Of a stretch of DNA of 31,615 bases, positions 12,492 through 31,615 are shown one piece after another. Every line of letters begins with the position of its first letter. Position 1 is the first letter of the stretch. The DNA is taken from positions 1 through 31,615 of IMG/VR virus record IMGVR_UViG_3300023196_001911; one strand, 5' to 3'. The notes below the pieces were generated by a model. The model was not told the DNA's origin. It was given only the letters and a program-made list of their open reading frames with translations, and searched no databases. The DNA is from a virus. Both the position numbers and the translations under genes were made by a program.

Positions 12492-12494
12492 TTT

Positions 12495-14042
12495 TTAAAA
12501 TTCCAGGATAATTTTAACGTCTTCTTTTTGTCTAGAGTTTCTTGAAACAAGAGGTCTATTATCAATATAAATTAAATCCCCCGACTCTTTATTTATCTCA
12601 GGAGTAGCAAGACCGTTTGTAAATTGAGAACCCAAACTTATGATTTTGGTGCCTGTTGGATTGGTTGTAATTCCAGTAAAATTAACATCAATAGATCCAG
12701 AGAATCCACCATCACTAGTTACTGGATTTGATGATGATTCAAAATCATAAATTCTTCCAGTGGTTGAAATACCAAGATAATCTTTTTGATCAAATGATGT
12801 TGAATTATAATTTGAAGTTCTATCAGTGTAATATTTTAAAACACTAGTTTCAGTATCAAATGAAGCAACATATCCCTTTGCAGTTCCATTAGTTGCTGTT
12901 TGGGAAATAATATCACCTGCAGAAACTGATCCAGATGTTAATGTAAATTTAATTGCGTACAATGAAGAATATTCTGACGCTTGATAAATTTCTGTAGAAC
13001 CAAAAGAAACTGGATTTTTAATTAATCCAATTTGAGAAAATTTAGTATCTACTGGGAAATCTTTAGTAGAATCATCAAATCTAGCATAAACTAAAACTTT
13101 ATCAGTACCAAGTTCTTTATATAAATCATATCCATGACCTTTAGATGGTGGAATTATAGGAATTAATTTTGCATTCCGATTCGATGATGCATTTAAATTT
13201 CCAGTATCAACAAGTCCATATGTATATCCCTTTCCACCAGATGAAACTTGTGCATTTGTAATTCTACCACCAATAATATCTAAAACAACTTGCCCACCAG
13301 TTCCATCTCCAATAATATTTACTACTTGACCAGTTCCACTCGAATAACCGGATCCTTCATTCTCAATATATATTTTTTTAATTTTATTATCATTTAAACT
13401 AGAATCACCATTTTCTCTAACAGTTTGAATTTGAGCATCTGTTGATGTGCTCCAGTTATTTGGTACTGTTATATATTCTGTAGAATCAAATTTAATAATA
13501 TCACTTGGAGAAACTGTGAATAGATATTTCCAAACATAACCATCTCCACTTTCACCAGACTTTGATGGTTCTAAATCTGTAAATGTTGGTTCATCTTGAG
13601 AAGCATTACCTAGAGGATTATTACCAGAAGATCCATTATCAATGCAAATATAAACTTTAAAGTCTGAGTTAATTACATAATAATTTGCATCATACAATCG
13701 TGTAGAATTTGTGATTGGTGATCTATTTGTAATACTATAATCATGGCGATACATTTCATACTTAGTTCCACGACTCCAATCAATTCTTCTTACCAATCTT
13801 CTAACATTTAGTCCAGTAACTTTTTTACCAAACATCATGTTATCTTTATAATGATATTCGTAATCTAAGTTATCAACGGGACTTGGTGTGTTTGTATCCC
13901 AATCAGAAGTTCTTCCAAAACCAACTGCTGCTGGGTTTGGAAGACCAACATAAACATAATACGAATTTGAAGAATTTTCTATAGATTCAACAAAATTATT
14001 CGAATTGAATATTCTAAATTGATCTGTAACAAGAGCAGACAT
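12495..14042 (-). CDS. gp8: Baseplate wedge protein, T4 gp8-like
   Basis: Encodes 515 residues (T4 gp8 has 334). gp8 is a dimeric wedge component that links gp7, gp6 and gp10 in the baseplate arm. The N-terminus MSALVTDQFRIFNSNNFVES and the following YYVYVGLPNPAAVGFGRTSDW, then LVRRIDWSRGTKYEMYRHDY and GDGYVWKYLFTVSPSDIIKF (about 168-187), are characteristic of gp8 of marine T4-like phages. Extra length comes from two Gly-x-Gly-Tyr repeats at about residues 225-285 (NEGSGYSSGTGQVVNI and SGGKGYTYG) and from a C-terminal beta region. It is preceded by a perfect late promoter 20 bases upstream. A weak GAG lies five bases before the ATG. The next gene starts three bases after its stop. Confidence 0.9.
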   Translation of the reverse strand: MSALVTDQFRIFNSNNFVESIENSSNSYYVYVGLPNPAAVGFGRTSDWDTNTPSPVDNLDYEYHYKDNMMFGKKVTGLNVRRLVRRIDWSRGTKYEMYRHDYSITNRSPITNSTRLYDANYYVINSDFKVYICIDNGSSGNNPLGNASQDEPTFTDLEPSKSGESGDGYVWKYLFTVSPSDIIKFDSTEYITVPNNWSTSTDAQIQTVRENGDSSLNDNKIKKIYIENEGSGYSSGTGQVVNIIGDGTGGQVVLDIIGGRITNAQVSSGGKGYTYGLVDTGNLNASSNRNAKLIPIIPPSKGHGYDLYKELGTDKVLVYARFDDSTKDFPVDTKFSQIGLIKNPVSFGSTEIYQASEYSSLYAIKFTLTSGSVSAGDIISQTATNGTAKGYVASFDTETSVLKYYTDRTSNYNSTSFDQKDYLGISTTGRIYDFESSSNPVTSDGGFSGSIDVNFTGITTNPTGTKIISLGSQFTNGLATPEINKESGDLIYIDNRPLVSRNSRQKEDVKIILEF

Positions 14043-20000: not shown

Positions 20001-23000
20001 TACAAACTATTTTCAAACTTAATTTGAGAAAAATTATTTACATCTTTATCTGATGTACTAATATATCCAGAAGGAGTTTTTGCTGCATAGAAAAGTTTTT
20101 GTGGAATGTCATCAAGATAATTTAATGTTAGTGATGCATTAGTAGAAACTCCTATAGTTCCTACACCAGATACTACAAAATTTGATGCAGATTCGACGGA
20201 TAAGAATTGATCGGCAAATTCTTCATCAAAGTAGAAATTAAAGTCATATCCATTTAAAGAAGAATCTGATAGATCAAACTTCAAACTATTATTTCTTACA
20301 GATATTAATTCTGGATTGATTAAACTTAATTCATGTAAAATACCACCGGTAGAACCTATACTAACGTATACTGGTGGGTTGGAAACAGAATCATTATAAA
20401 CTTCACAAAGTCTAATTCTATTGTCGTCAAATTTATACACAAAATATGATCCAGTAGTTAATCCAGACGAAATTAAATCTTCGGAATTATAATAAACCTT
20501 ATCACCTGTTTTTAATTTGTGTGATGTTAAAGTAATTAAATCATTTGCTGTATCAATACTTTCAGAAGTAAATCCAATAGGATTAATTAATAGTCTTTGA
20601 GAGTCTTCATCAAATTTTACATAGACTGAACTAAATGTTTGAATACCAACAGTTTTATTTGGATTTACTTCTAAAGTAATTTGATCTCTATTCTTTAATC
20701 CATGATCTCCTGAAACTAAAACTGTTGTTTTTATTTTTTGTACTTTTGTTCTAATTTGAGAGAAATTGCTCTCTAAAGAATATTCATAACTATCCGCAGA
20801 TCCACCATCATTTATAAAGAATACTTCTGATGATGTTCTAGTTGTCTTTATTCCAATAGTATTTTTTGTCTTATTTGAAATAAAGACTGTTTGTGAAGAT
20901 CCAGATGATGGTATGTTAAATGTAGAACCAAAAGTTGAAGAAGATACTTCAATTTTACTATGAGAATTTGGTACAGTAAGAATAACTTCCTGATTATTTG
21001 AAAATGGATGATCTTTGATGAAGATAGATTGAGTTTCAATTGCTCTCGTATAACTCGCAACTCTATCGGTAGTAACACCAAGATTAAATGATGTTGTTGA
21101 GTTTACACCAACACTTGCACCAAATCCAATGGATTCTGATGGTTTAAAGAAAACCTTATCATTAAACTTGGAATCAAAATAATCAACAGACTCCGAAATT
21201 GTAAATGTATCTGGTTCAAAATATATCGGTGTAGTTATAGTATGTGCAGACCCAACATTTCTTATAATCCTAATAATCTTTTGTTCTGGAAAAACATTTA
21301 GAAGAGATGTTAACTCTGATCCAATTTTTACAGTGCTTCCTATAGAAACATTATCTGGAATTTCATTTACATAAACATCTGTAGATAAACCAATAATAGA
21401 ATTTGTAGGAATGCCTTTTGATACAAAAGTTGAATTTGTTACAATTCCAATTTGATTTAACTTTTTAAGATTAGTTAGAGATGTTGTAAATCCAGATAAA
21501 GCAACATAATCCCTATCATTAAGATCATGAGATGGAGATATCTTTATTTTTAATGAATCTGGGGTATCCCTAACAATTACTGCATTGTCATAAGAATCTA
21601 TATTTGTAGACAAATCTATAACATTTTTTCCAGTTAACTTAGAGACTACAGATCTAAATCCATTTCCATTAGTTCCTGTATTATCAAATAATATCTCATC
21701 TTTAATTTTATAATTAGTTCCTACACCAACAATATCAGTATCAACTATCGAACTACCTAATACAGAATCAATTATTGCCTCGTGTCTAGCAAACGCATAT
21801 GATTCATATAGAAAATCATTACCCGCATTATCATCATTTAATTTATATGGTAATACATTTCTTATCAAAGTAGAATTATTAAAATCAAAAGATTGTGATA
21901 AAGATCTATTTTCTTCAATAAATGGAGATCTATAACTATCACCAACAAAGTATGGGAAAGAACTTATACCAATATTTTCATTATCTAATGCTGCAAAATA
22001 AACATAAGCACCATTAGGGAATTCTGGTGTTTTGCAGAATCTTCCATTATGTTCATCCAAATCTCCTGATTCTGCATATCTATAGTCTTCAATGAAGAAT
22101 CCTGGTTCAAATCCAGTTGGTCTATTTACAACAGATTCTGAATCTAAAATATAACCAGTGGTAAGAACTCTAGATGGTGAATTGATATCTTCAGAATCAG
22201 AATAACCATATGGTCCATAAATTGGATTACCATCATAGGACCAACCAATGATTGGGGAGTGTTTTAAAGAATTAGTATCTTTAAACTCATTTTGTAGTTT
22301 TGTATTGTATCCTGTAATAGAATACTGGAGACCTTCCTCTCCACCATCTAATATCTCTTCTCCATATTTTACTTTCTTATCAACAGAAAGATATCTAACA
22401 TTGGAATCTATTAAAGCATTAATTCCTGCAGATTTTACATTTATACTAGTAGTTGGTGCAGTATATCCAATTCCAGATTTTGTAACTATAACATTTATTA
22501 TTTTACCATTTTCTATTACTGGTCTCAATTCAGCACCACTGCCTTCACCAATCACTGTTAGTGTTGGAGATGAATAATACTCTTTACCTCCATACTGAAC
22601 AATTGCTTTAGTGACAGATCCATTATTTACAATTGGTCTGATTTCAGCATCTCTTCCATTTTTAATTACAATGTTTGGTTTTCTATGGAAATTTAAGGTC
22701 TTAGATCCATAATCAGAACCGGATTCGTAGAGATGTGCATCTACAATTTCACCTCTAATTATTGGAGTTGCTGTTATAACTCCAACAGTTTTTGCTGTTG
22801 TACCAACTCCAACAGAAGAATAATTAATATTAAATTTAATGTCTGGATATTTGAAATATTGATATCCAGATCCTTGTGATTTAAAATTTATATATTTTTT
22901 ACGCTCAAAATTTGAGAGAGTTCTACCACTTTCTATTATATCTTCACATAACCTAAAAGAGTTATCATCCATCTTTAAAACTCTGTAGTTGGTGTTAGAA

Positions 23001-25957
23001 GAAAGACCAACTATCGAATTTGTTTCATATTGATATTCTATCAAATCACCGTCATTGAATCCATGATTATTGAATGAAATTTCATCATAATATATTGATA
23101 TTCCAGATTGTTTTACAATTAGTTTTCTATTTTCATACTTACTTCCAGGATCTAAAACTACAATATCCTGAAGAATAACTTTTGGATCTGCTGTTTTAAA
23201 TTTGTGGATACCAGTATTACCAAATTGAGTAAATCCAACTGTATTAATACCAACTGCAAGATCTTTGGTGTTTTCATACAATCTAACAGTTGTAGAGTTT
23301 AAAATTTCTGCATAATATGATGCAGAATCAACTAATGTTTCTCCAGAATATGCGTTAGAACTATTAAAAGTTCCTTTTCCTAAAGCATCATTTCCATTTT
23401 TGTTATATGTAATAAGATCACCATTGTTTAGAAGATGTGGTTCTAAAAACGAAATAGTGTCGTCTGTAATATCGATACCACCATTATCTGTAGTTAATTT
23501 TGCACTAAACTCAATATCTCTAAATTTTTGTCTATTCAATACTGGAGAAAATGCAGCTCCACTACCATTTCCACCTGTTAATGCAATAGAAACAATTGAT
23601 TCCAATCCAATATCTTGTGGATCTACAACAACTCTTTCTAATGAACCAGTAACTACAGGTTGAATTTTAGCTCCTGTTCCAGTATCATCTACAAACTCTA
23701 ATACTGGTGGATTTATAACATCATATCCACTACCTGGGTTTAAAGTAGTTACATCTTCAATTGGACCATAATAAATTCTATCATCTGACTTATAACTATC
23801 AATTTCAACACCATTAATCAATACACCAACTTTACCTGGAACAGTCTCGTCAGACTTTCCATCTGCAATATTAGTTTCTAGTGGAAACTTTCTTAAAATT
23901 TTCTTTGGAGAAATAATACCCGATTTCTGGGAATTTAATAAAAATCTATGAAATCCAGAATCCGTTGGTAATGTTTTGAATGTTATATTATTAATACTTC
24001 CAATAAATGATCGAGAAATATATAATTTTATCTGATTTAAATCTGAGAGAACTTCAACATAATAAACTCCACCATCCTCTAATCCTGGAATGGGATCATT
24101 TTCTGCAGAATAATAAACTTCATCACCTGTTACAAATGGTACATTTGTGGGAAAAGATAAAATCGAATATGCTTCAATTAATTGATCATAACTTTGTAAT
24201 CTTGGTACTGTTGCTTCAGGAATTGACGCTTCAAATAAATTTTTAGTTAAAATATAGGATGGTAATGAATTTGATGCAATATACATAAATTCATCATTAT
24301 CATTATAAACATTTTGAATATCTGATGTGATAGATTCAAATTCAAATGGAACAACTGAACTAGATGCTTTTTTTAACTTTCTTCTAATATCATACTTTAA
24401 ATCTGGATTGTATACAAATCCAGTAAGATTACCTAAGACTATTTGATTAATTTGTGTATTAACTGTCTGTACAAAAGGTATGCTATCAATCGGTACTACA
24501 GTTTCACTATCACGAATTAGAATTTCAACAGAATCACCAACTTTTAAACTTGATTTATCAATTAAACTTCTCAAAAGAAACGAAGATCCATCAATAGTAT
24601 TAATTTGATATCTAGAACTAGTATTGTAAATCCAAGAGTTAGAAAACTTCTGTTTAAATGTCTTATCTTCAAGAGGATTATTAATTAATTCTCCAAGATT
24701 TCTTACATATATTGAGTCTCCTTCTTCAACAGAAAATTTATCCGAAAGTGGAACAAATGAAGATAAAACTCCAGTTAACCTTAATTCAACCTTTTTCGTC
24801 AAATCACCATTTTCATATCCATAAACAAAAAGATTAGATCGAATAGAATCTTTTGGATTAATTTCTTCTACTATACCAGAACAACCAAAGAATTGGTTTA
24901 AAGATTTGCTTGTATATGAAATAATATTTCCATTGACAATTAAGTCTCCAGAATCATCAAATCCAATAGTTGAATCGACTGTAATTACATTGGAACCAAT
25001 GTTCGTCTTTTCAACTACTAATGTTCTTCCAGGTAAATCAAATGATGATGAATTAATAGTATCATCACTATATCCAATAAACATGGATAGTTGATAATAA
25101 GTTAAATTTTGTCTAGAAATTACATCAACATTTGATATTGAAGCAAATATATTGGAATTATCAGATTGTTTAATAGTCTGACCGATCAAATTAGATGGAT
25201 TTCCAGAAATAGATTCGGCTACAACTACTTCTCTTCTAACATATTCTGAAAAAGATGGTTTGATTAAAAGATCTTCAAGATTGATAACAGTTGGTTTTAC
25301 ACCATATAATACATTGAAGAGTATTTTAAATGACTCATCAGTCCCTTTTGACTTATAAAAAGATTTGGACTCTTTGATAAAATTTCCAACATCTAAATCA
25401 GAAACAAAATTAACATCTTCTAGACCTGGAGTTAAAGAGAATTTTAATTTTTTATAAAATTCTCTTAAGAAAAGAGAACTTAAATTTTGTATAGTTACAC
25501 CAGATCTATGAGAAGAAGCATTAGTTGATTCAAAAACTACTTCTCCAGGATTTTCATCACTATGATATGTTGTAATACCACTAAATCCTCTTACACATCC
25601 AGTAAAAGATGTAGCAGTTGTATCTGTATATGTAATAATTTCATTATCAATTTTAAAAAGACCATACTTTTGAGGAAAACCTTTCGTATTTGATACCTCA
25701 ATAGTTGTATCAATAGATGTAATATCTACAGAAAGAGATGTAGAATCAACAACAACTTCTGATGTTAGATTATCTAATTTTAAATACTGATCTAAGTTCT
25801 CAGTAATATCAGATGAACCACTTTGATATTCTTGAGAAATATAATATTGCTTTAAAAAGTCCACCGCTTTCGGACTTTCATCTAACACAAACTCAGGTAA
25901 CTGACTTTCAATAATCTGTTGTACTTTTACCCGAGTTTCAAAACCTGTCTTGATCAT
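14072..25957 (-). CDS. Giant virion/baseplate protein with YHYH domain, in the gp7 position
   Basis: Encodes 3961 residues, nearly four times T4 gp7 (1032). It sits between gp6 and gp8, as gene 7 does in T4, so it is most likely the wedge initiator homologue with large insertions. The N-terminus (TRVKVQQIIESQLPEFVLDE, then AVDFLKQYYISQEYQ and LFLREFYKKLKFSLTPGLED) and the C-terminus (RRGYGLRDTGALKKDL) are shared by cyanophage gp7-type proteins. Near residues 1215-1325 is a YHYH-type domain (SPIIGWSYDGNPIYGPYGYS, then FCKTPEFPNGAYVYFA). The rest is beta-rich and modular: many GxGYxxxPxVxI repeats, at least five copies of an 'H...tGD.v.Y...YyV...d...i.L' module, and three copies of an 'EiitYt..RG..gT..H' module. 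No membrane segment is seen. The start lies two bases after the gp6 stop and has an AGAGG Shine-Dalgarno (minus strand AAGAGGTCGTAATATG). Confidence 0.85.
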   Translation of the reverse strand: MIKTGFETRVKVQQIIESQLPEFVLDESPKAVDFLKQYYISQEYQSGSSDITENLDQYLKLDNLTSEVVVDSTSLSVDITSIDTTIEVSNTKGFPQKYGLFKIDNEIITYTDTTATSFTGCVRGFSGITTYHSDENPGEVVFESTNASSHRSGVTIQNLSSLFLREFYKKLKFSLTPGLEDVNFVSDLDVGNFIKESKSFYKSKGTDESFKILFNVLYGVKPTVINLEDLLIKPSFSEYVRREVVVAESISGNPSNLIGQTIKQSDNSNIFASISNVDVISRQNLTYYQLSMFIGYSDDTINSSSFDLPGRTLVVEKTNIGSNVITVDSTIGFDDSGDLIVNGNIISYTSKSLNQFFGCSGIVEEINPKDSIRSNLFVYGYENGDLTKKVELRLTGVLSSFVPLSDKFSVEEGDSIYVRNLGELINNPLEDKTFKQKFSNSWIYNTSSRYQINTIDGSSFLLRSLIDKSSLKVGDSVEILIRDSETVVPIDSIPFVQTVNTQINQIVLGNLTGFVYNPDLKYDIRRKLKKASSSVVPFEFESITSDIQNVYNDNDEFMYIASNSLPSYILTKNLFEASIPEATVPRLQSYDQLIEAYSILSFPTNVPFVTGDEVYYSAENDPIPGLEDGGVYYVEVLSDLNQIKLYISRSFIGSINNITFKTLPTDSGFHRFLLNSQKSGIISPKKILRKFPLETNIADGKSDETVPGKVGVLINGVEIDSYKSDDRIYYGPIEDVTTLNPGSGYDVINPPVLEFVDDTGTGAKIQPVVTGSLERVVVDPQDIGLESIVSIALTGGNGSGAAFSPVLNRQKFRDIEFSAKLTTDNGGIDITDDTISFLEPHLLNNGDLITYNKNGNDALGKGTFNSSNAYSGETLVDSASYYAEILNSTTVRLYENTKDLAVGINTVGFTQFGNTGIHKFKTADPKVILQDIVVLDPGSKYENRKLIVKQSGISIYYDEISFNNHGFNDGDLIEYQYETNSIVGLSSNTNYRVLKMDDNSFRLCEDIIESGRTLSNFERKKYINFKSQGSGYQYFKYPDIKFNINYSSVGVGTTAKTVGVITATPIIRGEIVDAHLYESGSDYGSKTLNFHRKPNIVIKNGRDAEIRPIVNNGSVTKAIVQYGGKEYYSSPTLTVIGEGSGAELRPVIENGKIINVIVTKSGIGYTAPTTSINVKSAGINALIDSNVRYLSVDKKVKYGEEILDGGEEGLQYSITGYNTKLQNEFKDTNSLKHSPIIGWSYDGNPIYGPYGYSDSEDINSPSRVLTTGYILDSESVVNRPTGFEPGFFIEDYRYAESGDLDEHNGRFCKTPEFPNGAYVYFAALDNENIGISSFPYFVGDSYRSPFIEENRSLSQSFDFNNSTLIRNVLPYKLNDDNAGNDFLYESYAFARHEAIIDSVLGSSIVDTDIVGVGTNYKIKDEILFDNTGTNGNGFRSVVSKLTGKNVIDLSTNIDSYDNAVIVRDTPDSLKIKISPSHDLNDRDYVALSGFTTSLTNLKKLNQIGIVTNSTFVSKGIPTNSIIGLSTDVYVNEIPDNVSIGSTVKIGSELTSLLNVFPEQKIIRIIRNVGSAHTITTPIYFEPDTFTISESVDYFDSKFNDKVFFKPSESIGFGASVGVNSTTSFNLGVTTDRVASYTRAIETQSIFIKDHPFSNNQEVILTVPNSHSKIEVSSSTFGSTFNIPSSGSSQTVFISNKTKNTIGIKTTRTSSEVFFINDGGSADSYEYSLESNFSQIRTKVQKIKTTVLVSGDHGLKNRDQITLEVNPNKTVGIQTFSSVYVKFDEDSQRLLINPIGFTSESIDTANDLITLTSHKLKTGDKVYYNSEDLISSGLTTGSYFVYKFDDNRIRLCEVYNDSVSNPPVYVSIGSTGGILHELSLINPELISVRNNSLKFDLSDSSLNGYDFNFYFDEEFADQFLSVESASNFVVSGVGTIGVSTNASLTLNYLDDIPQKLFYAAKTPSGYISTSDKDVNNFSQIKFENSLYNGTYEIAGVGATTFDISLTREPEVLSYTSSECDVLKYETTSTTTTGGIAGVKILSGGNKYKKLPAFSETVSEEGTGGFIIAKSNNIGKINQITISNQGYEYPSDKTLSPVAFISPLITLKSAFKVDSVGVSSAGSGYSHPPDVILVDSVTREVFDSGLLELSLDNKTIGSIKIVETPYGLSENETEVLTINNDNGYSINKIESSSGFATCYLSTPVLGFSIPPFDIGDAIFVEGILNSDSGTGYNSSDYGYKFFTVSGFTNSIPATVEFSVSGLSTNAGVAKTTQDGIPSIINYKNYPLFSLEKSFSQFRNGETLLVYIGDEYIETDLEILKSSDESLKIFGDYALKVNDKIKGKGTGTIATINSIEENLGKFNIGVKLRKDLGWKNDVGKLNDDKQFIADNDYYQNLSYSVKSPIEYDEMSINVNRLLHPSGMKNFADTEIQENVSAGIRTTVDNSFEILDFINEDRVDQVHHFDQVLDIDSAGNKTKFVKLENKKLTSFIRCVSNRVLQIDNIKSRFSNVGLEETDQNIIDNDDENFGGFVRYLIQIVDTDRTEYQLNDIVVISDSEDNFILEKLSLTNQEFPIASIDGGVDLLGNNYIAFNAVDPYTRDYDIKILSNKFATDLVGVGTTSLGLTNLTSTIKNIPAGITSSILSFSADECNSLYFNIYSKNTITNESNYSEIYVNHDGVDVYISEYYYNTDRSIKSQLGEFNSSLSNGILSLDFTNTEPNNVRLGVKSIGFGTESLGIGTYRFKNEEQTDETERTVIYETNYSNSSGITTIVSASRSLFTTIKSTLNVSVGSTSALYQTAILNESGGDTHLAVYQPLSVGSTSGIGTFGSGISGSSVELVFYPDSTITDNVEISSFSELIYTDFDLQNQPDDLEYGPIKESHSFIEYGGVNGLRVERRDFDLYHEKSPIFEKTFNPSKTRFLDPATGIFTISNHFFNTGEELIYTPGSTLSDISAVGIATAGGTLPSQVYVIKLTDDTFNLAKSKSLAESGIGVTFTSIGAGNAHKLEMTQKLEKSLITIDNLVQYPITYCLVSHTLLSNYGGSVGVGTTYISLSGISSIRSGDLLKIEDEFVKVLNVGYGETSLGPITGIGNTNLVFVERGVVGTAETSHADLSTVDLYRGSYNLKGNKIHFTDPPAGDFRSSRDPSNLNFFKSDFTGRVFLRKDYTTNQLYDNISESFTGIGQTYILTTSGLNTVGLGTEGGTGILFINNMFQAPTSDNNPTNNFNIIEDAGVGISSIVFSGSSIDPSEEDIISAYDVNENQLPRGGVIVSLGSTGGLGIAPLVGASVTAVIDGSGSITSVGIGTTDLVGSGYYGTVSVGVTDSNHTGTEASITATVGAGGSLSFTVGDGGSGYTNPIIQLPSPSYSNLPVQGVSRLGVGATTDVGTGLLLNLEVGASSTTGIGSTLHEVKSFKIVRNGYGFSFGDVITPVGIVTAKEIPSPLSQFELTVTDIYTDSFAAWQFGELDYIDSIKSFQDGTKKRFPLFYNGSLLSFESPSDDSTINLNSLLMIYVNGVLQEPNESYTFNGGSSFSFMIPPDPEDAISIFFYRGTKGEDSNLVEVTETIKIGDTIRIEQNDEIPETIGQNARDVIDLPTSDKIETVNYNQKGIDQENARPLTWMKQKVDKIINNEMVYKVRGSIESQIVPVSKIIYDVNTLDGQVFVDDAQLFNYEENQSSIIISEVDGIIIDNIVDPVSASITATVSYNGTIDSLNINDGGSGYSGSSTDLKISSPRNIGTGITATATASITEGVITSVTITNPGLGYSVLTPPQVITSLPNVSYENVTGIIGVEGFSGIITGISTTSGVGTDIALKFDLSISSPTTFTGTNLSAGYVISIFDTVIGSGVTSIDNSDSETIGIGTIFVDNIYKIHTYTGIGATQASIVCNVMNSQSLSGIDTFGYDQLGKFSWGRLYGFSRSSSPISIGVTGKTVNSGLSTFPTIQRRGYGLRDTGALKKDLA

Positions 25958-25958
25958 A

Positions 25959-27848
25959 TTACGACCTCTTTAGCTCCCCGTTGGAATAACTTGATGTGTA
26001 GAAATTATTAACAAATTCGACGCCAGATACATTATCTCCAGAAGAAATAACATCTCTTACCATATTTATTGAACTTTTAGCAACATCAAACGACAGATAT
26101 AGATCCTTTAATCCAACAACATCATTGGACTCTGGAAATGCTTGAATTTCAATAATATCATTTGGTAAAACAGTATCTATGATATTAATCGTATTAATAA
26201 GAATCTCTCCCTTTACATAATCTACTGTTCCAATATTTTTGGAAACAGCAACATTATTACCATCAGAATCAACTTTAGATAAAGAGAGAACACCCACTTT
26301 ATTGTTTATTGGTGTATCTGTAATATAAACAGTAGAAGGATCATTTGAAACTCTAAATCCAGTAGATTTAATATTAAATCCATTTGGATTTATGTGAAAT
26401 CTATTTCCAAAACAAATCTCATACTGTGCTAGTTGATTTTTAAATGCCTTTAAATCTCTTCTAATTTTGACTTTCGTAATGTTTGATGTAATTGCAGAAT
26501 CTGTATTATCAATAATTTGAAGAGCTTTACTATACTTGAATCTTCCCCCAAATTTATTAATATCTACAGATTGAGAATATCTTGTTAATGATGTTTCTAC
26601 TTTTGTTTTTAAAGAATTGACCGTAGAAACTAATGATGAATTATAGTAAACAGAAGAATCTAGTTCAACATATAGAACCTTAAGATCTGTAATTCTGGTA
26701 TTAATACCAGAAATGGTATATTGCTTAAGTTTTGATGATATTTGATCCTTGTCAAAATCAGAAACATATATTCCATTTTTTGGTTTGATACTCAAAATGA
26801 CTGAACCAAATTGTGGCGGATCCATTTCTTCACCACCAATAACGGATACAGATTCTGTATTTGAATATATTGATTTTATAATTGATTCGTAATCTCTGGC
26901 AGTTACTGCCCTATATTGAGATTCATATGATCTTGATGCAAAATATTTTACAGAATCAATTGTTTCAATATCTGCACCGTTTTGAGACTTCTGATTTGTG
27001 GTTACAGTAATTGTATTTGTTGGAACGATAATTTCATCAGAGGATCCTCTCAGACTTCCAGCAAAATTGAATACTGAAGATCCGTTTCCTTCTATACCAT
27101 CAGTAACAATATAGTTAACTGTAATTACACTACCATTATCTAACTTTTTACCAAAGTATCCATCACCAAATAAAAGTTCATATTTTTCATCTTGCACTTC
27201 TTGAATCAAATATATCTCAGAAGTTGAATTAACATTTATGATATTATCGACCAACTTAAACTGTCTTCCCAATCCAGTATCTGAAAGTCCCTTTACATAC
27301 ACAACAATCGTCGATGTATCGATAAAAGAATTATCTAGAGTAAACTTCTGATCTAAAGAACCATCAAAGACAAATTGTTTTGTAAGATATGTTCCCTGAC
27401 TAACATCAATATTACTAAAACTTGCAGATCCGTTTTGTATCGTTGTAGTAATACTTTCAGAAATAGAGAATGTATATGTTTCGTCGTTTACGTCCCCAAC
27501 GCACACCAGACCAGGTTTTAAGGTGATTGTTGCTGATGTACTGGTAGTTTGCACATCAAACGATATCTGCGCCTTAGAGGCGGTTCTGGAGCGTGGTACA
27601 TATCCAATATTTCGAGCAAGAGATACTACATTTTCTCTAAGTGTTGCAGAATCCAAGAAGGATTCATTCACAATCATGTTCGCATTAAATGCATTAATGT
27701 AAGTATTATATGCTAACGTATCGATCAATACAGAAAAATTAGACCCCTCAAAGTCAAAATCCGTGAAATTTGAATTTGCACGAAGATAATCTTTGATGGA
27801 TGTCTTAATTTGATCGAAATCTAAATTTGAGAACTTTGTAAAAGGCAT
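25959..27848 (-). CDS. gp6: Baseplate wedge protein, T4 gp6-like
   Basis: Encodes 629 residues (T4 gp6 has 660). gp6 dimers form the continuous inner ring of the baseplate wedge and change shape with sheath contraction. The N-terminus (FSNLDFDQIKTSIKDYLRAN, then FEGSNFSVLIDTLAYNTYIN, about 34-53, and SLARNIGYVPRSRTASKAQI) is the classic gp6/baseplate J signature. Further recognisable parts are YELLFGDGYFGKKLDNGSVI (about 228-247), the SQYRAVTARDYESIIKSIY block near 313-331, and VIGGEEMDPPQFGSVILSIK. It follows the gp25 stop by one base and is followed within two bases by the giant gene, so these genes form one operon. Confidence 0.95.
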   Translation of the reverse strand: MPFTKFSNLDFDQIKTSIKDYLRANSNFTDFDFEGSNFSVLIDTLAYNTYINAFNANMIVNESFLDSATLRENVVSLARNIGYVPRSRTASKAQISFDVQTTSTSATITLKPGLVCVGDVNDETYTFSISESITTTIQNGSASFSNIDVSQGTYLTKQFVFDGSLDQKFTLDNSFIDTSTIVVYVKGLSDTGLGRQFKLVDNIINVNSTSEIYLIQEVQDEKYELLFGDGYFGKKLDNGSVITVNYIVTDGIEGNGSSVFNFAGSLRGSSDEIIVPTNTITVTTNQKSQNGADIETIDSVKYFASRSYESQYRAVTARDYESIIKSIYSNTESVSVIGGEEMDPPQFGSVILSIKPKNGIYVSDFDKDQISSKLKQYTISGINTRITDLKVLYVELDSSVYYNSSLVSTVNSLKTKVETSLTRYSQSVDINKFGGRFKYSKALQIIDNTDSAITSNITKVKIRRDLKAFKNQLAQYEICFGNRFHINPNGFNIKSTGFRVSNDPSTVYITDTPINNKVGVLSLSKVDSDGNNVAVSKNIGTVDYVKGEILINTINIIDTVLPNDIIEIQAFPESNDVVGLKDLYLSFDVAKSSINMVRDVISSGDNVSGVEFVNNFYTSSYSNGELKRS

Positions 27849-27849
27849 T

Positions 27850-28251
27850 TTATCTTGTTGCCTCTAATAAAAATGTAAATTGTTGGGTTGGGAACTCCTG
27901 TCCAATAATATCAAAGGTAACTGAAACCTCAAATTCGTTGGTATCTGCAGAAGGATTAACTTCTACAACTACATTTTCGACTCTTGGCTCAAAATTTTCG
28001 ATAGATGTTAAAATTTGCGACTCAATTAATGATGCGGTACCAAAATCCACAAAATTAAACAAACTAGACCGCACATCAGATCCAAATAATGGATTAAAAA
28101 ACTTTTCTGTGGGTATTGTTTGTATAATATTGCGAATAGATCGTATGATAGCACGCTCATTCTTAAGAATCTGCAAATCTTTTGTCACTGGATGTGAATC
28201 AAAAGATAAACTGATGTCTTTAAATGATTTTGATATCTTTTGTAGAGACAT
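27850..28251 (-). CDS. gp25: Baseplate wedge protein, T4 gp25-like (lysozyme-fold family)
   Basis: Encodes 133 residues, nearly identical in length to T4 gp25 (132). gp25 binds the gp6/gp53 wedge core and connects to the first sheath ring; homologues exist in all contractile systems (TssE in type VI secretion). The segment ERAIIRSIRNIIQTIPTEKF (28-47) followed by FNPLFGSDVRSSLFNFVD is the conserved core, and the family Glu ending the first helix is present (ESQILTSIENFEPRVE). The C-terminal strands read FEVSVTFDIIG and QQFTFLLEATR. A near-perfect late promoter box (CATAAATA) lies 23 bases upstream, making this the first gene of the baseplate operon. Confidence 0.95.
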   Translation of the reverse strand: MSLQKISKSFKDISLSFDSHPVTKDLQILKNERAIIRSIRNIIQTIPTEKFFNPLFGSDVRSSLFNFVDFGTASLIESQILTSIENFEPRVENVVVEVNPSADTNEFEVSVTFDIIGQEFPTQQFTFLLEATR

Positions 28252-28274
28252 TCAGACAAGAAATTTCTTATCTT

Positions 28275-28282
28275 TATTTATG
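28275..28282 (-). promoter_or_regulatory. Probable late promoter, CATAAATA (7 of 8 to T4 box)
   Basis: The minus strand reads GCATAAATAAAG between the 50-aa gene and gene 25. It shares ATAAATAAAG with the perfect box at 4768-4775 and differs only in the first base. Transcription would start about 6-8 bases downstream and give a leader of roughly 15 bases for gene 25. Confidence 0.6.
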
Positions 28283-28284
28283 CC

Positions 28285-28437
28285 CTAATTCCCATAATTC
28301 ATTTTAAAGTCTTTTCTGTGTGAAATATCTGTTCTATTCTCTTTTTTTGTTGGTAAAGACCAATAATCTGTTATTAAACTGGTTGTTCCCCATGTTTGAT
28401 ACATATAATCCTTATTTCTATCTGCAGGTTTTCCCAT
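28285..28437 (-). CDS. Small hypothetical protein (50 aa) with strong ribosome-binding site
   Basis: ATG 28437-28435 to TAG 28287-28285 encodes MGKPADRNKDYMYQTWGTTS, then LITDYWSLPTKKENRTDISH and a basic end. A strong Shine-Dalgarno AGGAG lies five bases before the ATG (minus strand ACAGGAGTAAAAATG), the best in the window, which supports translation. The composition is polar and basic with several aromatic residues and no membrane helix. It lies between the 222-aa protein and gene 25, and its stop is only two bases from the late promoter box of gene 25. Function is unknown; a minor virion or assembly role is possible from position only. Confidence 0.75.
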   Translation of the reverse strand: MGKPADRNKDYMYQTWGTTSLITDYWSLPTKKENRTDISHRKDFKMNYGN

Positions 28438-28480
28438 TTTTACTCCTGTTTACTGCGAAACAGAACTTTTTAAGGGGTTT

Positions 28481-29149
28481 CTATCCCTCTTCACTATTTA
28501 TTTTTCTCTCTTGGGCAGTTTTCCAGAAATATTCATCTTCACGACCCATTCCAAGTCGATCAAATCCATTCTCAACCTGGTAGTACTGCGTTGATACCTT
28601 AAAATCAGGTATCTTTGGTTCGACTGGTGTCAAACTATTATCGAAAATACGCAATCTATTGTTGGGGTAGAGTGCGTATTGACCATTTTCTAACTCAATC
28701 AAGTTATGTGACTTATGTTCTGCTGGATTTTCACTCGTCGCATAATCAATATAGTCTGGATCATGATGGTAATTATCAATTGTACAGATATAAGTACCCT
28801 TTACATTACCATGATCCCTGGTATAACACTCAAAGTCCATTGAACCAATAAACTTCTTATCCACTGATACGACTCCGTAGTCCATGCAGTTCCAAAATTG
28901 CAGGTTAGGTAGATTCATATCAGGTGAAGGGGTCTCAGGATTCTTTACAAAGGCACTGATAGGTAGTTTATCATACATTGCAGCATACTCTGGTAAGTAT
29001 GTCTCAAAATAAAAAGCACGTCCAGGAATCGATTTAACCGATACCCAAACGCCCTTTACAAATTCTCTATGACCAGACTGATGATCTGTTAGATATTCTT
29101 TACGTACCCATACTTCTTTTGATGGAAGATTAGCAATCAAACAAGACAT
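28481..29149 (-). CDS. Conserved cyanophage hypothetical protein (222 aa)
   Basis: Opens MSCLIANLPSKEVWVRKEYL, continues GVWVSVKSIPGRAFYFETYL and LQFWNCMDYGVVSVDKKFIG. I recognise this as a protein conserved in T4-like cyanophages, with no function known to me. It is rich in aromatic residues, acidic overall, without signal peptide or membrane segment, and probably a folded beta-rich protein. The middle holds many His and Asp (DNYHHDPDYIDYATSENPAE), which could bind a metal, though I see no known site. The C-terminus is charged (REDEYFWKTAQERKINSEEG). GC content here (about 40%) is a little above that of the structural genes. No Shine-Dalgarno is evident before the ATG. Confidence 0.8.
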   Translation of the reverse strand: MSCLIANLPSKEVWVRKEYLTDHQSGHREFVKGVWVSVKSIPGRAFYFETYLPEYAAMYDKLPISAFVKNPETPSPDMNLPNLQFWNCMDYGVVSVDKKFIGSMDFECYTRDHGNVKGTYICTIDNYHHDPDYIDYATSENPAEHKSHNLIELENGQYALYPNNRLRIFDNSLTPVEPKIPDFKVSTQYYQVENGFDRLGMGREDEYFWKTAQERKINSEEG

Positions 29150-29174
29150 AAAAAATAATGACTGTTCTATCTAT

Positions 29175-29315
29175 TCAACCTCTTCCTTGTCCCCGATAAC
29201 GCTTACGTGCCCCATTACGAGAAGTCGCGGCATATTTGGTATGCTTACCAGTTCCTTGACGAGATTTTTTGGGCGCGCCTTCAACATAACCCATTCCTTT
29301 ACGCATAGCAGCCAT
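29175..29315 (-). CDS. Very basic small protein (46 aa)
   Basis: ATG 29315-29313 to TGA 29177-29175 encodes MAAMRKGMGYVEGAPKKSRQ, then GTGKHTKYAATSRNGARKRY and RGQGRG. It has 13 Arg/Lys and one acidic residue, is rich in Gly, and lacks hydrophobic stretches, so it is likely disordered and able to bind nucleic acid. A perfect Shine-Dalgarno (GGAGG, six bases before the ATG) lies inside the end of the preceding 53-aa gene, so the two are co-expressed. I recall close relatives in other cyanophages. A DNA- or RNA-binding or virion-packaged role is an inference from charge only. Confidence 0.8.
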   Translation of the reverse strand: MAAMRKGMGYVEGAPKKSRQGTGKHTKYAATSRNGARKRYRGQGRG

Positions 29316-29317
29316 AA

Positions 29318-29479
29318 TTAACCTCCAAGAATTTCAGTTTCAATTTGATTTGGTTTGGGAGAACCTTCCTTATAATACTTTTGAGCAAGATCTTCAATAG
29401 TATCCAGGTATTCTTCCTCTGTGATGTTTGAGTGGATTAGTTCTCCCTTACACCAGATATTATAGCGTTCGTTAGCCAT
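29318..29479 (-). CDS. Small conserved hypothetical protein (53 aa)
   Basis: ATG 29479-29477 to TAA 29320-29318 encodes MANERYNIWCKGELIHSNIT, then EEEYLDTIEDLAQKYYKEGS and PKPNQIETEILGG. It is acidic, with a probable beta strand at the start followed by the amphipathic helix EEEYLDTIEDLAQKYY. The start lies four bases after the glycosyltransferase stop and the stop lies two bases before the next start, so it belongs to the same transcript. Similar short proteins occur next to glycosyltransferase-type genes in cyanophages as I recall. Function unknown. Confidence 0.75.
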   Translation of the reverse strand: MANERYNIWCKGELIHSNITEEEYLDTIEDLAQKYYKEGSPKPNQIETEILGG

Positions 29480-29483
29480 AAAG

Positions 29484-30242
29484 TCAAATCACTCTTGTCT
29501 TTTCGTGACCGACTCTAATACGAGGATCGCACCAAATTTCAAAACCAGCTTCCTTAGCATCCAAACAGAACGATACGTCCTCTCCACACATATCTTGTAC
29601 TTCACCAGATTCAAAGACTTGCATCTTCGGAGCAAACCATGGATATTTCATTTCTCCATGTTCAAACACTCCGTGTTTAATTAGAAGCCATCCGAAACCA
29701 GTGTAGTCTACCGTGAAAGGTTTACGACGCTTTGAGATACTCTCAACAGTTTCATGATTCATTACTCCACCATTACCACGGAAGTCATCCTCATCTAACC
29801 AGTGTGCTACAGATGTTGTGTGACCATCCTCAGTAGCATACCATCCTCCAGCAATATCCTTATCCATCAATACTAATTGATAGAACTTCTCAGTGTTGAA
29901 TACAATATCACTATCAATCCATAATTGATAATCATACTGCAACTTTCCATCCCAAGGAATCTGATCAGGTCCACGTAATACATTTGCACCAAGACACTTA
30001 CATCGTGCAAAGTTCACCATTGAAGAGTAATCTTGTGAAATTTGGATACTAGCGCCAGTTTGCACTAGATCAAAGCATAGTTGTACAAAACTCTTTAGAT
30101 ACGTATAAGAAACTCCACGTCCTGGAAGACAAAATACAATTGACTTCCCACGAAGCATCTCTCGTGCTTTATCATAGTCCCATTCAGATGCTTCCTTCTT
30201 TGTTACGGGCGCTTTTGCTTTTACAGTGAATCCTTTAGCCAT
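29484..30242 (-). CDS. GT-A type glycosyltransferase
   Basis: Encodes 252 residues. Features of GT-A sugar transferases are visible: IVFCLPGRGVSY (35-46) as the first strand and loop, SMVNFARCKCLG (74-85) like the nucleotide-sugar-binding 'd.aRn' motif, and LWIDSDIVF with the DxD motif at 110-112 that would bind a metal and the sugar nucleotide. Further on are AGGWYA (131-136), YTGFGWLLIKHGVFE (180-194), and GEDVSFCLDAKEAGFEIWCD (220-239) followed by His246, matching the usual acid/base and metal-ligand region. It probably transfers a sugar to a virion protein, phage DNA or a host surface component; the acceptor cannot be told. No signal peptide or membrane helix, so it is cytosolic. It is preceded by a strong host-type promoter and followed by two small genes on the same transcript. 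Confidence 0.85.
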   Translation of the reverse strand: MAKGFTVKAKAPVTKKEASEWDYDKAREMLRGKSIVFCLPGRGVSYTYLKSFVQLCFDLVQTGASIQISQDYSSMVNFARCKCLGANVLRGPDQIPWDGKLQYDYQLWIDSDIVFNTEKFYQLVLMDKDIAGGWYATEDGHTTSVAHWLDEDDFRGNGGVMNHETVESISKRRKPFTVDYTGFGWLLIKHGVFEHGEMKYPWFAPKMQVFESGEVQDMCGEDVSFCLDAKEAGFEIWCDPRIRVGHEKTRVI

Positions 30243-30248
30243 AGTTGT

Positions 30249-30260
30249 AAGTAATTACTT
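30249..30260. repeat. 12-bp perfect palindrome in the glycosyltransferase leader
   Basis: AAGTAATTACTT is its own reverse complement and lies at about +1 to +10 of the transcript predicted from the sigma70 promoter at 30265-30293. The position would suit an operator, or a small hairpin near the ribosome-binding site, but no regulator is known. Confidence 0.4.
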
Positions 30261-30264
30261 CAGT

Positions 30265-30293
30265 ATCATACAGTATTATCTAGTTAATGTCAA
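30265..30293 (-). promoter_or_regulatory. Strong sigma70-type promoter for the glycosyltransferase gene
   Basis: On the minus strand TTGACA (30293-30288), a 17-base spacer and TATGAT (30270-30265) match the bacterial consensus in 11 of 12 bases with ideal spacing. The predicted start, near 30258, lies about 16 bases before the ATG. The -35 box overlaps the TGA stop of the upstream AbrB-like gene. This allows early transcription by host RNA polymerase, in contrast to the late boxes of the structural genes. Confidence 0.8.
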
Positions 30294-30484
30294 TCGCATT
30301 CTAATTCGGTTATCACAATGCAATCACCATCAACCTCCATGTTTATTTCAGTGCCCTCATACCACCCATACTCACTAATAACCCATTCTGGAAGTCTTAT
30401 ATAATACTCACCAGTTACAGAATCAACTTCTATATTAGTAATATTTTCTCCGGGATTTTTTTGCATATCAGTAAACTCTACCAT
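30290..30484 (-). CDS. Small AbrB/SpoVT-like protein (64 aa)
   Basis: From ATG 30484-30482 it reads MVEFTDMQKNPGENITNIEV, DSVTGEYYIRLPEWVISEYG, WYEGTEINMEVDGDCIVITE. The pattern 'tGe.yirLP.wv..e.GW.eGt.i.....d..iviT' is that of the swapped-hairpin AbrB/MazE DNA-binding fold, though only one such half is present and the protein is acidic. It might act as a transcription regulator or an antitoxin-like protein. No toxin gene lies next to it. I chose ATG 30484 over an upstream in-frame TTG at 30517, because that extension would pass through a 10-base homopolymer (plus strand A, 30499-30508) and adds an unlike hydrophobic end. Neither start has a good Shine-Dalgarno. Confidence 0.65.
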   Translation of the reverse strand: MVEFTDMQKNPGENITNIEVDSVTGEYYIRLPEWVISEYGWYEGTEINMEVDGDCIVITELECD

Positions 30485-30517
30485 TGATTTTATATAGCAA
30501 AAAAAAAATTTTACCAA

Positions 30518-30640
30518 GTATAATATTTAATAGGCAATCGTAACACTTTGTAGACTAGGGTAGTTATGCGTTTTTAATCACGCGCCCCAGGGGGGCACCC
30601 CCAATCAACGGGGGCACTGCTGCTTTAACGAACGCATGGG
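30518..30640. other. Intergenic junction between AT-rich and GC-rich DNA, with alternative G/C hairpins
   Basis: No gene is seen here. GC content changes sharply near 30575. The segment 30584-30614 holds runs that can pair in several exclusive ways: CCCCC (30598-30602) with GGGGG (30610-30614) around a 7-base loop, or GCCCC (30584-30588) with GGGGC (30592-30596). It follows the nuclease-like gene by about 27 bases on the minus strand and could serve as its terminator, although no T-run follows directly. Comparable G/C runs are very rare in the AT-rich part of the window. Confidence 0.55.
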
Positions 30641-31390
30641 TCACATGGTGATCAGGCGCACATCAGCAGAACCTGTCACCAACTGATCCACACGGTCCTG
30701 TTGCAACTTCAAAACAACCTGAGAATTGCGGTTCGCTTTGGACAGACCTAGGAAGGCGCGAATACCATTGTTGCTGGTGACGCGCAGGCGGAGACCAACC
30801 TCCACAATATGATGATCTTTCACCAGGACGACCTTACGGGATGTCATGCCGCGTCCCTTCTCAATCTTTGCAACGTATCCATTTTCTAGGAGACGGGCGG
30901 CGGGAATAACGTCGTGTTCGATGACGTAGCAGCGTCGGGCGTCGGTGTCGGTGATTACCATAGACATGCCGTCGTTTGCTTCAATCAGTTCGGAACGCAA
31001 CCAAGCGGTCAGAGATGCGGGGTCGATCGAATCCAGAGCGGCAGAGCAGATCTCATTAAACAGATCGCGGCACTCGGTTACAATCGCGTCACGCTTAACG
31101 GTCTCCCACTGACGGGCATCACTGACGAACTTAAGAAATGGGTTGAACTGAGAGGCGTCGATCAGGGTATCAGTCTTTGAAGTGTTGATCCAATCAAATG
31201 ATCCGTTTTTCAGTCCTGCCTTGTGCTTGATGCTGATTCGCTTAGTTCCCGCCATGGCGTCTGCCTTGTTACGGGTACCGCCCTTATGGGTCACAGTGTC
31301 GGGAAAGACGCGGTGATCGTTGAGCAGTTGAATAGTTGCCAGTTCATTGGCGATGCCTTTGTGGTGTGTGCTGCCGTTGGTTTTGAACAT
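30641..31390 (-). CDS. Possible PD-(D/E)XK nuclease-like protein in GC-rich block
   Basis: Encodes 249 residues. The first 70 residues, HHKGIANELATIQLLNDH (9-26), GGTRNKADAMAG (37-48) and KRISIKHKAG (50-59), then GSFDWINTSK, look like a restriction-endonuclease fold. On this reading Glu16 lies in the first helix, Asp44 is the metal ligand, and Lys55 or Lys57 is the catalytic Lys of a degenerate (D/E)XK motif. The acidic residue two before Lys55 is Ser, so activity is uncertain. The middle (about 100-160) is helical. The C-terminal third holds beta-rich segments (RKVVLVKDHHIVEVGLRLRV) and may bind DNA. Codon use is GC-rich (about 55% in a sampled line) against about 33% for the structural genes, which suggests acquisition. 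It is flanked by G/C hairpins, and no Shine-Dalgarno precedes the ATG. It could be a homing-type or defence/anti-defence nuclease. Confidence 0.7.
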   Translation of the reverse strand: MFKTNGSTHHKGIANELATIQLLNDHRVFPDTVTHKGGTRNKADAMAGTKRISIKHKAGLKNGSFDWINTSKTDTLIDASQFNPFLKFVSDARQWETVKRDAIVTECRDLFNEICSAALDSIDPASLTAWLRSELIEANDGMSMVITDTDARRCYVIEHDVIPAARLLENGYVAKIEKGRGMTSRKVVLVKDHHIVEVGLRLRVTSNNGIRAFLGLSKANRNSQVVLKLQQDRVDQLVTGSADVRLITM

Positions 31391-31398
31391 GTAGTTAG

Positions 31399-31415
31399 GG
31401 GGTGAGCGCCACCCC
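31399..31415 (-). promoter_or_regulatory. G/C stem-loop just before the nuclease-like gene start
   Basis: GGGGTG (31399-31404) and CACCCC (31410-31415) pair perfectly around a 5-base loop, 8 bases upstream of the ATG at 31390. A stem at this place in the mRNA leader would cover the ribosome-binding region, where no Shine-Dalgarno is seen, so it might control translation. Confidence 0.5.
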
Positions 31416-31433
31416 GGAGTGGTTTACTTTGTT

Positions 31434-31442
31434 ATTGTAGCA
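31434..31442 (-). promoter_or_regulatory. Candidate extended -10 promoter
   Basis: The minus strand reads TGCTACAAT about 44 bases before the nuclease-like gene. It has the TGn extension and five of six bases of the -10 consensus TATAAT. No convincing -35 box is present at the right distance. Confidence 0.3.
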
Positions 31443-31446
31443 TGAA

Positions 31447-31461
31447 AGGGGGGCAACCCCT
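31447..31461 (-). terminator. Short G/C hairpin followed by TTT, overlapping a stop codon
   Basis: On the minus strand AGGGG (31461-31457), loop TTGCC, then CCCCT (31451-31447) followed by two more T form a 5-bp stem. The first A is the last base of the TGA stop of the partial upstream gene. Position and shape fit a weak intrinsic terminator for that gene. Confidence 0.5.
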
Positions 31462-31615
31462 CACAGTTCTGCCATCATCTCATTCATTTCATCGGCGTCG
31501 ATCGCTGCATCATCCCAACGCACCCCGTCTGCTGTCTCACCCATCATCCGACCGATCATGCCGTCAGTCATGCAGCGAACGAATTTGGTCCAAGGGGTTT
31601 CACCTTCGGCAAACT
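31461..31615 (-). CDS. C-terminal end of an unknown protein, truncated at the right window edge
   Basis: The last 50 codons read FAEGETPWTKFVRCMTDGMI, GRMMGETADGVRWDDAAIDA, DEMNEMMAEL and end in TGA 31463-31461. The tail is acidic and unusually rich in Met (8 of 50 residues). The DNA is GC-rich, as for the adjacent nuclease-like gene, so both belong to the same foreign-looking block. I do not recognise the family. The beginning lies outside the window. Confidence 0.65.
   Translation of the reverse strand, partial: FAEGETPWTKFVRCMTDGMIGRMMGETADGVRWDDAAIDADEMNEMMAEL

Follow-up and report, generated by a model that had tools for sequence, protein, structure and literature searches.

We examined the GC-rich end of a 31,615-base virus record, IMGVR_UViG_3300023196_001911, and refer to this whole stretch as the window. 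The window is a fragment of a T4-like cyanophage, as a first-pass annotation had judged, with large baseplate genes, gp6 and gp25; across its final 4.6 kb, the closest deposited relative is Synechococcus phage S-SKS1. The features at this end, with the basis for each in brackets, are as follows.

29484-30242, minus strand: phrog_1574 gene, weakly similar to glycosyltransferases, which serves as the anchor of the locus (profile match)
30290-30517, minus strand: gene for a MazE/AbrB-like small DNA-binding protein, phrog_661 (a neighbor, not specific to R)
30538-30576, minus strand: conserved intergenic element TAAAAACGCATAACTACCCTAGTCTACAAAGTGTTACGA in the interval between R and the MazE-like gene (alignment)
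30578-30640, minus strand: GC-rich sequence following R, whose short inverted repeats vary between clades (change-point, alignment)
30641-31390, minus strand: candidate restriction-endonuclease gene R, 249 aa, predicted PD-(D/E)XK fold (open reading frame, homologues, alignments, models, dN/dS)
31399-31415, minus strand: hairpin GGGGTG-GCGCT-CACCCC close to the start codon, in the leader of R (conserved position, covarying stem)
31461-31615, minus strand: 3′ part of a Met-rich DUF7249/phrog_871 gene, cut by the contig end (PF23907, E 3e-14; phrog_871, E 2e-15)

The sharp rise in GC that the annotation placed near 30575 is borne out. The best change-point lies at 30578, with GC of ~0.37 locally before it and 0.536 after it, and positions 30576-31615 have a GC of 0.535, compared to a maximum of 0.410 among all 1040-bp stretches before 30575 (mean 0.320, sd 0.027). 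Both genes that had been reported in the block are there: R is an intact open reading frame (30641-31390, minus strand) with the suggested PD-(D/E)XK fold in our models, and the partial Met-rich frame at 31461-31613 (minus strand) is the end of the DUF7249/phrog_871 gene, which neighbors R in many relatives too. The description of several G/C hairpins not seen elsewhere stands only in part: a strict criterion leaves one (31399-31415), no excess for such a GC content, and this one is conserved across relatives and covaries.

The TAAAAACGCATAACTACCCTAGTCTACAAAGTGTTACGA element, upstream of the MazE-like gene, has a core that recurs letter for letter in 18 fetched loci, one of them a contig (L168) whose R is ~6 kb away, and has no match in Rfam; it may serve as promoter or leader for the genes that follow. 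We considered the MazE-like neighbor as a dedicated controller of R and regard this as unlikely, as related DNA occupies the place in cyanophages without R. In one relative (L026, 8800-12840), a 3-kb zone with GC up to 0.63 and many small ORFs (one of them DUF7249-like) lies between R and the MazE-like gene and contains what looks like a gene for an HNH homing endonuclease (12098-12838); the region of phage ACG-2014f that matches this interval holds a ‘cox1-i7’ endonuclease.

At least 80 IMG/VR contigs carry R, and the homologues share 38-93% identity with the window protein. R adjoins the phrog_1574 gene in 61 of the 80 related contigs; gp25 and gp6 come next in those that extend far enough. 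This placement of R holds down to ~40% protein identity. Because the place is shared by so many relatives across such a spread of identities, we reject a recent insertion, and comparison of the contigs indicates that the locus is old in uncultivated T4-like cyanophages. The annotation had called the block recently acquired, a claim that fails by the sign it had itself named for an old core locus, namely the same genes at the same place in most relatives. None of 50,697 phage records contains R, and 104 of them carry the phrog_1574 neighbor gene; a profile search of two deposited cyanophages gave no match, and a scan of genome contigs found no cellular homologues. Sequence searches of Pfam, PHROGs, NCBIfam, PADLOC and PDB returned nothing significant, so the family is new to these collections and to deposited phage genomes.

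The GC content of R tracks the clade and not the place: it is 0.52-0.60 in the window’s large clade, with GC at third codon positions (GC3) of 0.61-0.76, and GC3 is ~0.2-0.56 in other clades. In the same clade where R is GC-rich, its putative partner methylase gene M (described below) has a GC3 of ~0.40-0.46. On the window branch of R, we count 36 G/C-to-A/T changes versus 6 in reverse with L006 as the outgroup, and 32 versus 6 when L003 is required to agree. The dN/dS of R is about 0.07 (range 0.06-0.23), indicating purifying selection. R is selected for function while its composition drifts toward the AT-rich makeup of the phage; one possibility for the origin of the GC-richness is that the clade’s ancestor exchanged DNA with a GC-rich source.

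We modeled the window protein with AlphaFold2 on 20 relatives (pLDDT 89.9) and, as a second model, the R of an operon-bearing contig, L097, which is 38-42% identical (pLDDT 90.5). The window model runs helix, strand, strand with D44, strand S53-I-K55-H-K57 and strand with D66, followed by a helical insertion and a C-terminal part rich in beta structure; the PD-(D/E)XK core is present as H10-25, E33-35, E45-47, E50-57 and E65-70. Its top VIA-align matches are ThaI and NhoI (Z 7.6), DpnI (7.1) and Hjc (6.8), values that taken alone are middling and within reach of unrelated folds. The L097 model matches HinP1I with a Z of 11.0 over 193 residues (rmsd 3.8), followed by I-Ssp6803I (7.5), Hjc (7.1) and HhaI (6.6); HinP1I appears for the L097 model only and is missing from the fold matches of the window model. 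Matches to aminoacyl-tRNA synthetase folds had low TM-scores and were dropped.

In 36 diverse members, E16, D44 and D66 are invariant and K55 is present in 35; S/T53-x-K55 and K57 are nearly invariant. The classical motif is altered at this active site, where S/T and not D/E precedes x-K; this counts against a restriction enzyme, as does the lack of a sequence match to known restriction enzymes. Two confident models (pLDDT 90) give a fold of the PD-(D/E)XK restriction-endonuclease type. At 249 aa, with one nuclease fold and no helicase or other Pfam domain, R is predicted to be a separate, ATP-independent single-domain endonuclease as in Type II restriction-modification (R-M) systems, and it is probably a DNA-cutting restriction enzyme. 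A target site might be guessed from the related folds, as HinP1I and HhaI both cut GCGC, or from the hairpin loops GCGC and TCGA; we considered this and do not claim one, because M is nearly identical in clades with differing loops.

Among the first 24 R contigs examined, eight encode an N6_N4 methylase (PF01555, E about 1e-40), and each of the eight holds a member of a single family (A3), which is M; one also has a second, different PF01555 gene. M is about 325 aa, its DPPF and DPFCGSGTT (motif I) are invariant in the alignment, and these motifs together with the PF01555 match place it among the beta-class N6/N4 amino-methyltransferases; PADLOC calls it MTase_II. Identity is 71-93% across the seven members aligned. 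The family is confined to IMG/VR contigs, and none of the best matches in the 50,697 phage records exceeds ~31% identity.

In the T4-like cyanophage clades, including that of the window, M lies 8-14 kb from R on the same strand. In about ten contigs outside the window’s clade, from other marine T4-like viruses, M follows R directly or overlaps it, as in an R-M operon. The two genes abut or overlap in L082, L085, L097, L098, L151, L152, L162, L163, L165, L166 and L169; the gap between them is 41-130 bp in L164, L086 and L087 and 1.1-1.5 kb in L021, L140, L154, L155 and L159. Beside R in L098 (5954-6924), M is broken across two frames that overlap (233 and 100 aa), reflecting a frameshift or a sequencing error. 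R is present in 26 of the 46 records with M; among the 20 without it, 17 end less than 8 kb downstream of M and two at 10-11 kb, and the one that counts against an R-M pair (L134) runs for ~18 kb downstream of M with no R. The window has no M and ends before the expected place; the metagenomes of its two closest relatives (L002 and L003) hold M contigs (L130 and L171), which is circumstantial.

One clade of divergent cyanophages (L048-L052, L056, L057, L065 and L089, including contigs of 135 kb and 63 kb, and two that extend more than 14 kb upstream) has R with no M found, which counts against an R-M pair, and a search there for Dam-type or D12 methylases found none. These cyanophages keep the hairpin where the leader is complete. 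No C5 methylase was found as a partner of R. R sequences diverge far more quickly than M sequences, the usual pattern for pairs of this kind; R and M distances correlate weakly (Mantel r 0.23, p 0.006), which counts against the pairing. A cognate methyltransferase as in a Type II system is nevertheless present in relatives, whether adjacent, overlapping or 8-14 kb away, and in our judgment from gene order this linkage is the decisive evidence that R and M are a putative R-M pair. The structure class of R and its conservation, selection and linkage are established by computation.

The hairpin sits exactly 8 nt before the R ATG, and ~40 of 62 distinct R leaders have it at that place or close by. 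Its stem compensates (GG/CC, GC/GC, CC/GG) around a constant GTG...CAC; pairing holds in 92.6% of cells versus 75% in shuffles and 37-59% in shifted registers, in sequences that are related and so contribute few independent changes. The motif occurs once per fetched locus, before R, except in a sub-clade with a second copy, and M leaders have no such hairpin. RNA folding gives the hairpin as drawn in 7 of 8 test leaders and not in the eighth, from a hairpin-less clade; the folding energy of most leaders is only 1.4-2.8 sd below shuffles. Phage T4 delays lysozyme and homing endonucleases by start-site hairpins (PMC2988022, PMC3014915). As no Shine-Dalgarno sequence is visible within the R hairpin, its mechanism may differ from that of T4; it possibly delays cutting until the DNA is protected.

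In that sub-clade, the second copy precedes a HicA-like gene: in L084 (9103-9344) the same hairpin, CCGTGTCGATCACGG, sits 8 nt upstream of the gene’s start codon, and the gene with this hairpin is also found in L081, L083, L251, L258, L268, L296, L304 and L312. The protein is 69-73 aa (PF07927, E 0.006; phrog_18430 ‘toxin’, E 4e-8), and the gene lies ~2-3 kb downstream of R in contigs with both genes.

We consider it likely that R is the endonuclease of a virus-encoded Type II-like R-M system whose partner M lies beyond the fragment. Its activity, specificity, regulation and role we infer as follows. M would be found past the end of the window, 8-14 kb from R on the same strand, and would methylate the phage’s own DNA at a short site; R would cut the same site when unmethylated. 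The hairpin 8 nt before the start would probably hold back translation of R, with M made first. R might then destroy the host chromosome, the DNA of co-infecting or later-coming phages, or both, as a lytic phage with R and M could attack unmethylated DNA in the cell and both targets are accessible in a bacterium. The GC-rich allele of R is old in the clade and is drifting to the AT-rich composition of the phage. More doubtful is the idea that an R-M operon was split over ~10 kb in marine T4-like cyanophages, with the hairpin keeping R untranslated until M has protected the genome; in one sub-clade, the hairpin would also control the HicA-like toxin gene, making a small RNA-level regulon of DNA- and RNA-cutting enzymes. 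We put it forward tentatively. The annotation had suggested a defence-type function, and we agree with this in the form of restriction-modification.

R could instead be a non-specific or modification-guided nuclease that degrades host DNA, or a recombination nuclease resembling a Holliday-junction resolvase, with M an independent orphan methylase. Archaeal Hjc is indeed among the fold matches (Z 6.8-7.1), and one clade has R but no detected M. We find this account improbable in view of the R/M gene overlaps in many lineages, the absence of both genes from deposited phages, the near-complete co-occurrence of R in M contigs and the best, near full-length fold match, which is to a Type II enzyme (HinP1I, Z 11.0). 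A free-standing homing endonuclease or selfish gene with a T4-like translation-delaying hairpin is very unlikely: R has kept its place through many lineages and not moved, a methylase gene overlaps it in others, and its strong purifying selection is unlike the decay cycle of homing genes. In favor of the homing reading are the fold match to I-Ssp6803I, a PD-(D/E)XK homing endonuclease (Z 7.5), the start-site hairpins on T4 homing endonuclease genes (PMC2988022, PMC3014915) and the HNH and GIY-YIG-type genes in the same region of relatives. The chimeric contig that the annotation had offered as an alternative can be dismissed despite the sharp GC step at a contig end, because independent assemblies from other metagenomes run through the junction (L003, with 22647-31414 aligned unbroken at 91%, and L002, with 29181-31615 aligned at 90%).

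Restriction-modification is usually described as a host weapon against phages. If R and M are the R-M pair that we propose, widespread uncultivated marine cyanophages seem to carry their own system. The literature that we searched, with most subscription journals outside it, holds no description of cyanophage-encoded R-M systems; as far as that literature goes, R and M would be an undescribed viral pair. If active, they would provide a specific mechanism for host-DNA takeover or phage-phage competition in Synechococcus, as well as a new enzyme pair whose methylation mark could be read from long-read ocean metagenomes.

Among known enzymes, HinP1I (PDB 2fkc, 1ynm) resembles R in its PD-(D/E)XK fold, its single domain and its size (about 250 aa), with the Z of 11.0 coming from the L097 model; it differs in that identity is 11% and that R is viral and has S/T before the active-site Lys. 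ThaI, NhoI and DpnI are the best fold matches of the window model (7.6, 7.6 and 7.1), but these align over 112-137 residues with no sequence similarity and at Z values that unrelated folds can reach.

Two further cyanophage proteins recovered by structure similarity lie next to methylase genes as well, which favors the R-M reading. The first, gp45 of Synechococcus phage S-CAM22, is a Foldseek match (E 1.4e-3 and 4.5e-5) with GGS-x2-K-x-D and SIK motifs, and this nuclease-like gene overlaps an N6_N4 methylase gene, gp46. Unlike R, gp45 has 208 aa and is about 12-17% identical, and gp46 is a different methylase from M (TSPPY, 240 aa). As hhalign (A2 versus gp45) aligned a 28-residue motif and nothing more, homology beyond the fold is not shown for gp45. 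The gp45/gp46 genes (L102, 32911-34256; KU686208) look like a complete small R-M pair, and gp45 homologues are also found in S-RIM12 and Sf-CH1b. In ACG-2014f (KJ019105, 129102-136292; L218-L219), a 433-aa ORF with GG-x3-K-x-D and SLK, tied to the Foldseek match by length and phage name only, lies immediately upstream of a methylase of the DPPY (D12) type, and another cluster nearby has NPPY and DPPY methylase-like ORFs; this is possibly another R-M region in a cultured cyanophage lineage. A motif of the type GG-x3-K-x-D ... S-[IL]-K is common to R, gp45 and the ACG-2014f ORF.

The precedent comes from marseilleviruses and chloroviruses. These are eukaryotic giant viruses, and the marseillevirus GATC enzyme resembles CviAI; we found no relation between their enzymes and R. 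What they share with the system proposed here is a virus-encoded R plus M with a proposed exclusion of competing viruses, and the marseillevirus systems, which do not degrade host DNA, are thought to exclude competitors (PMC7253447).
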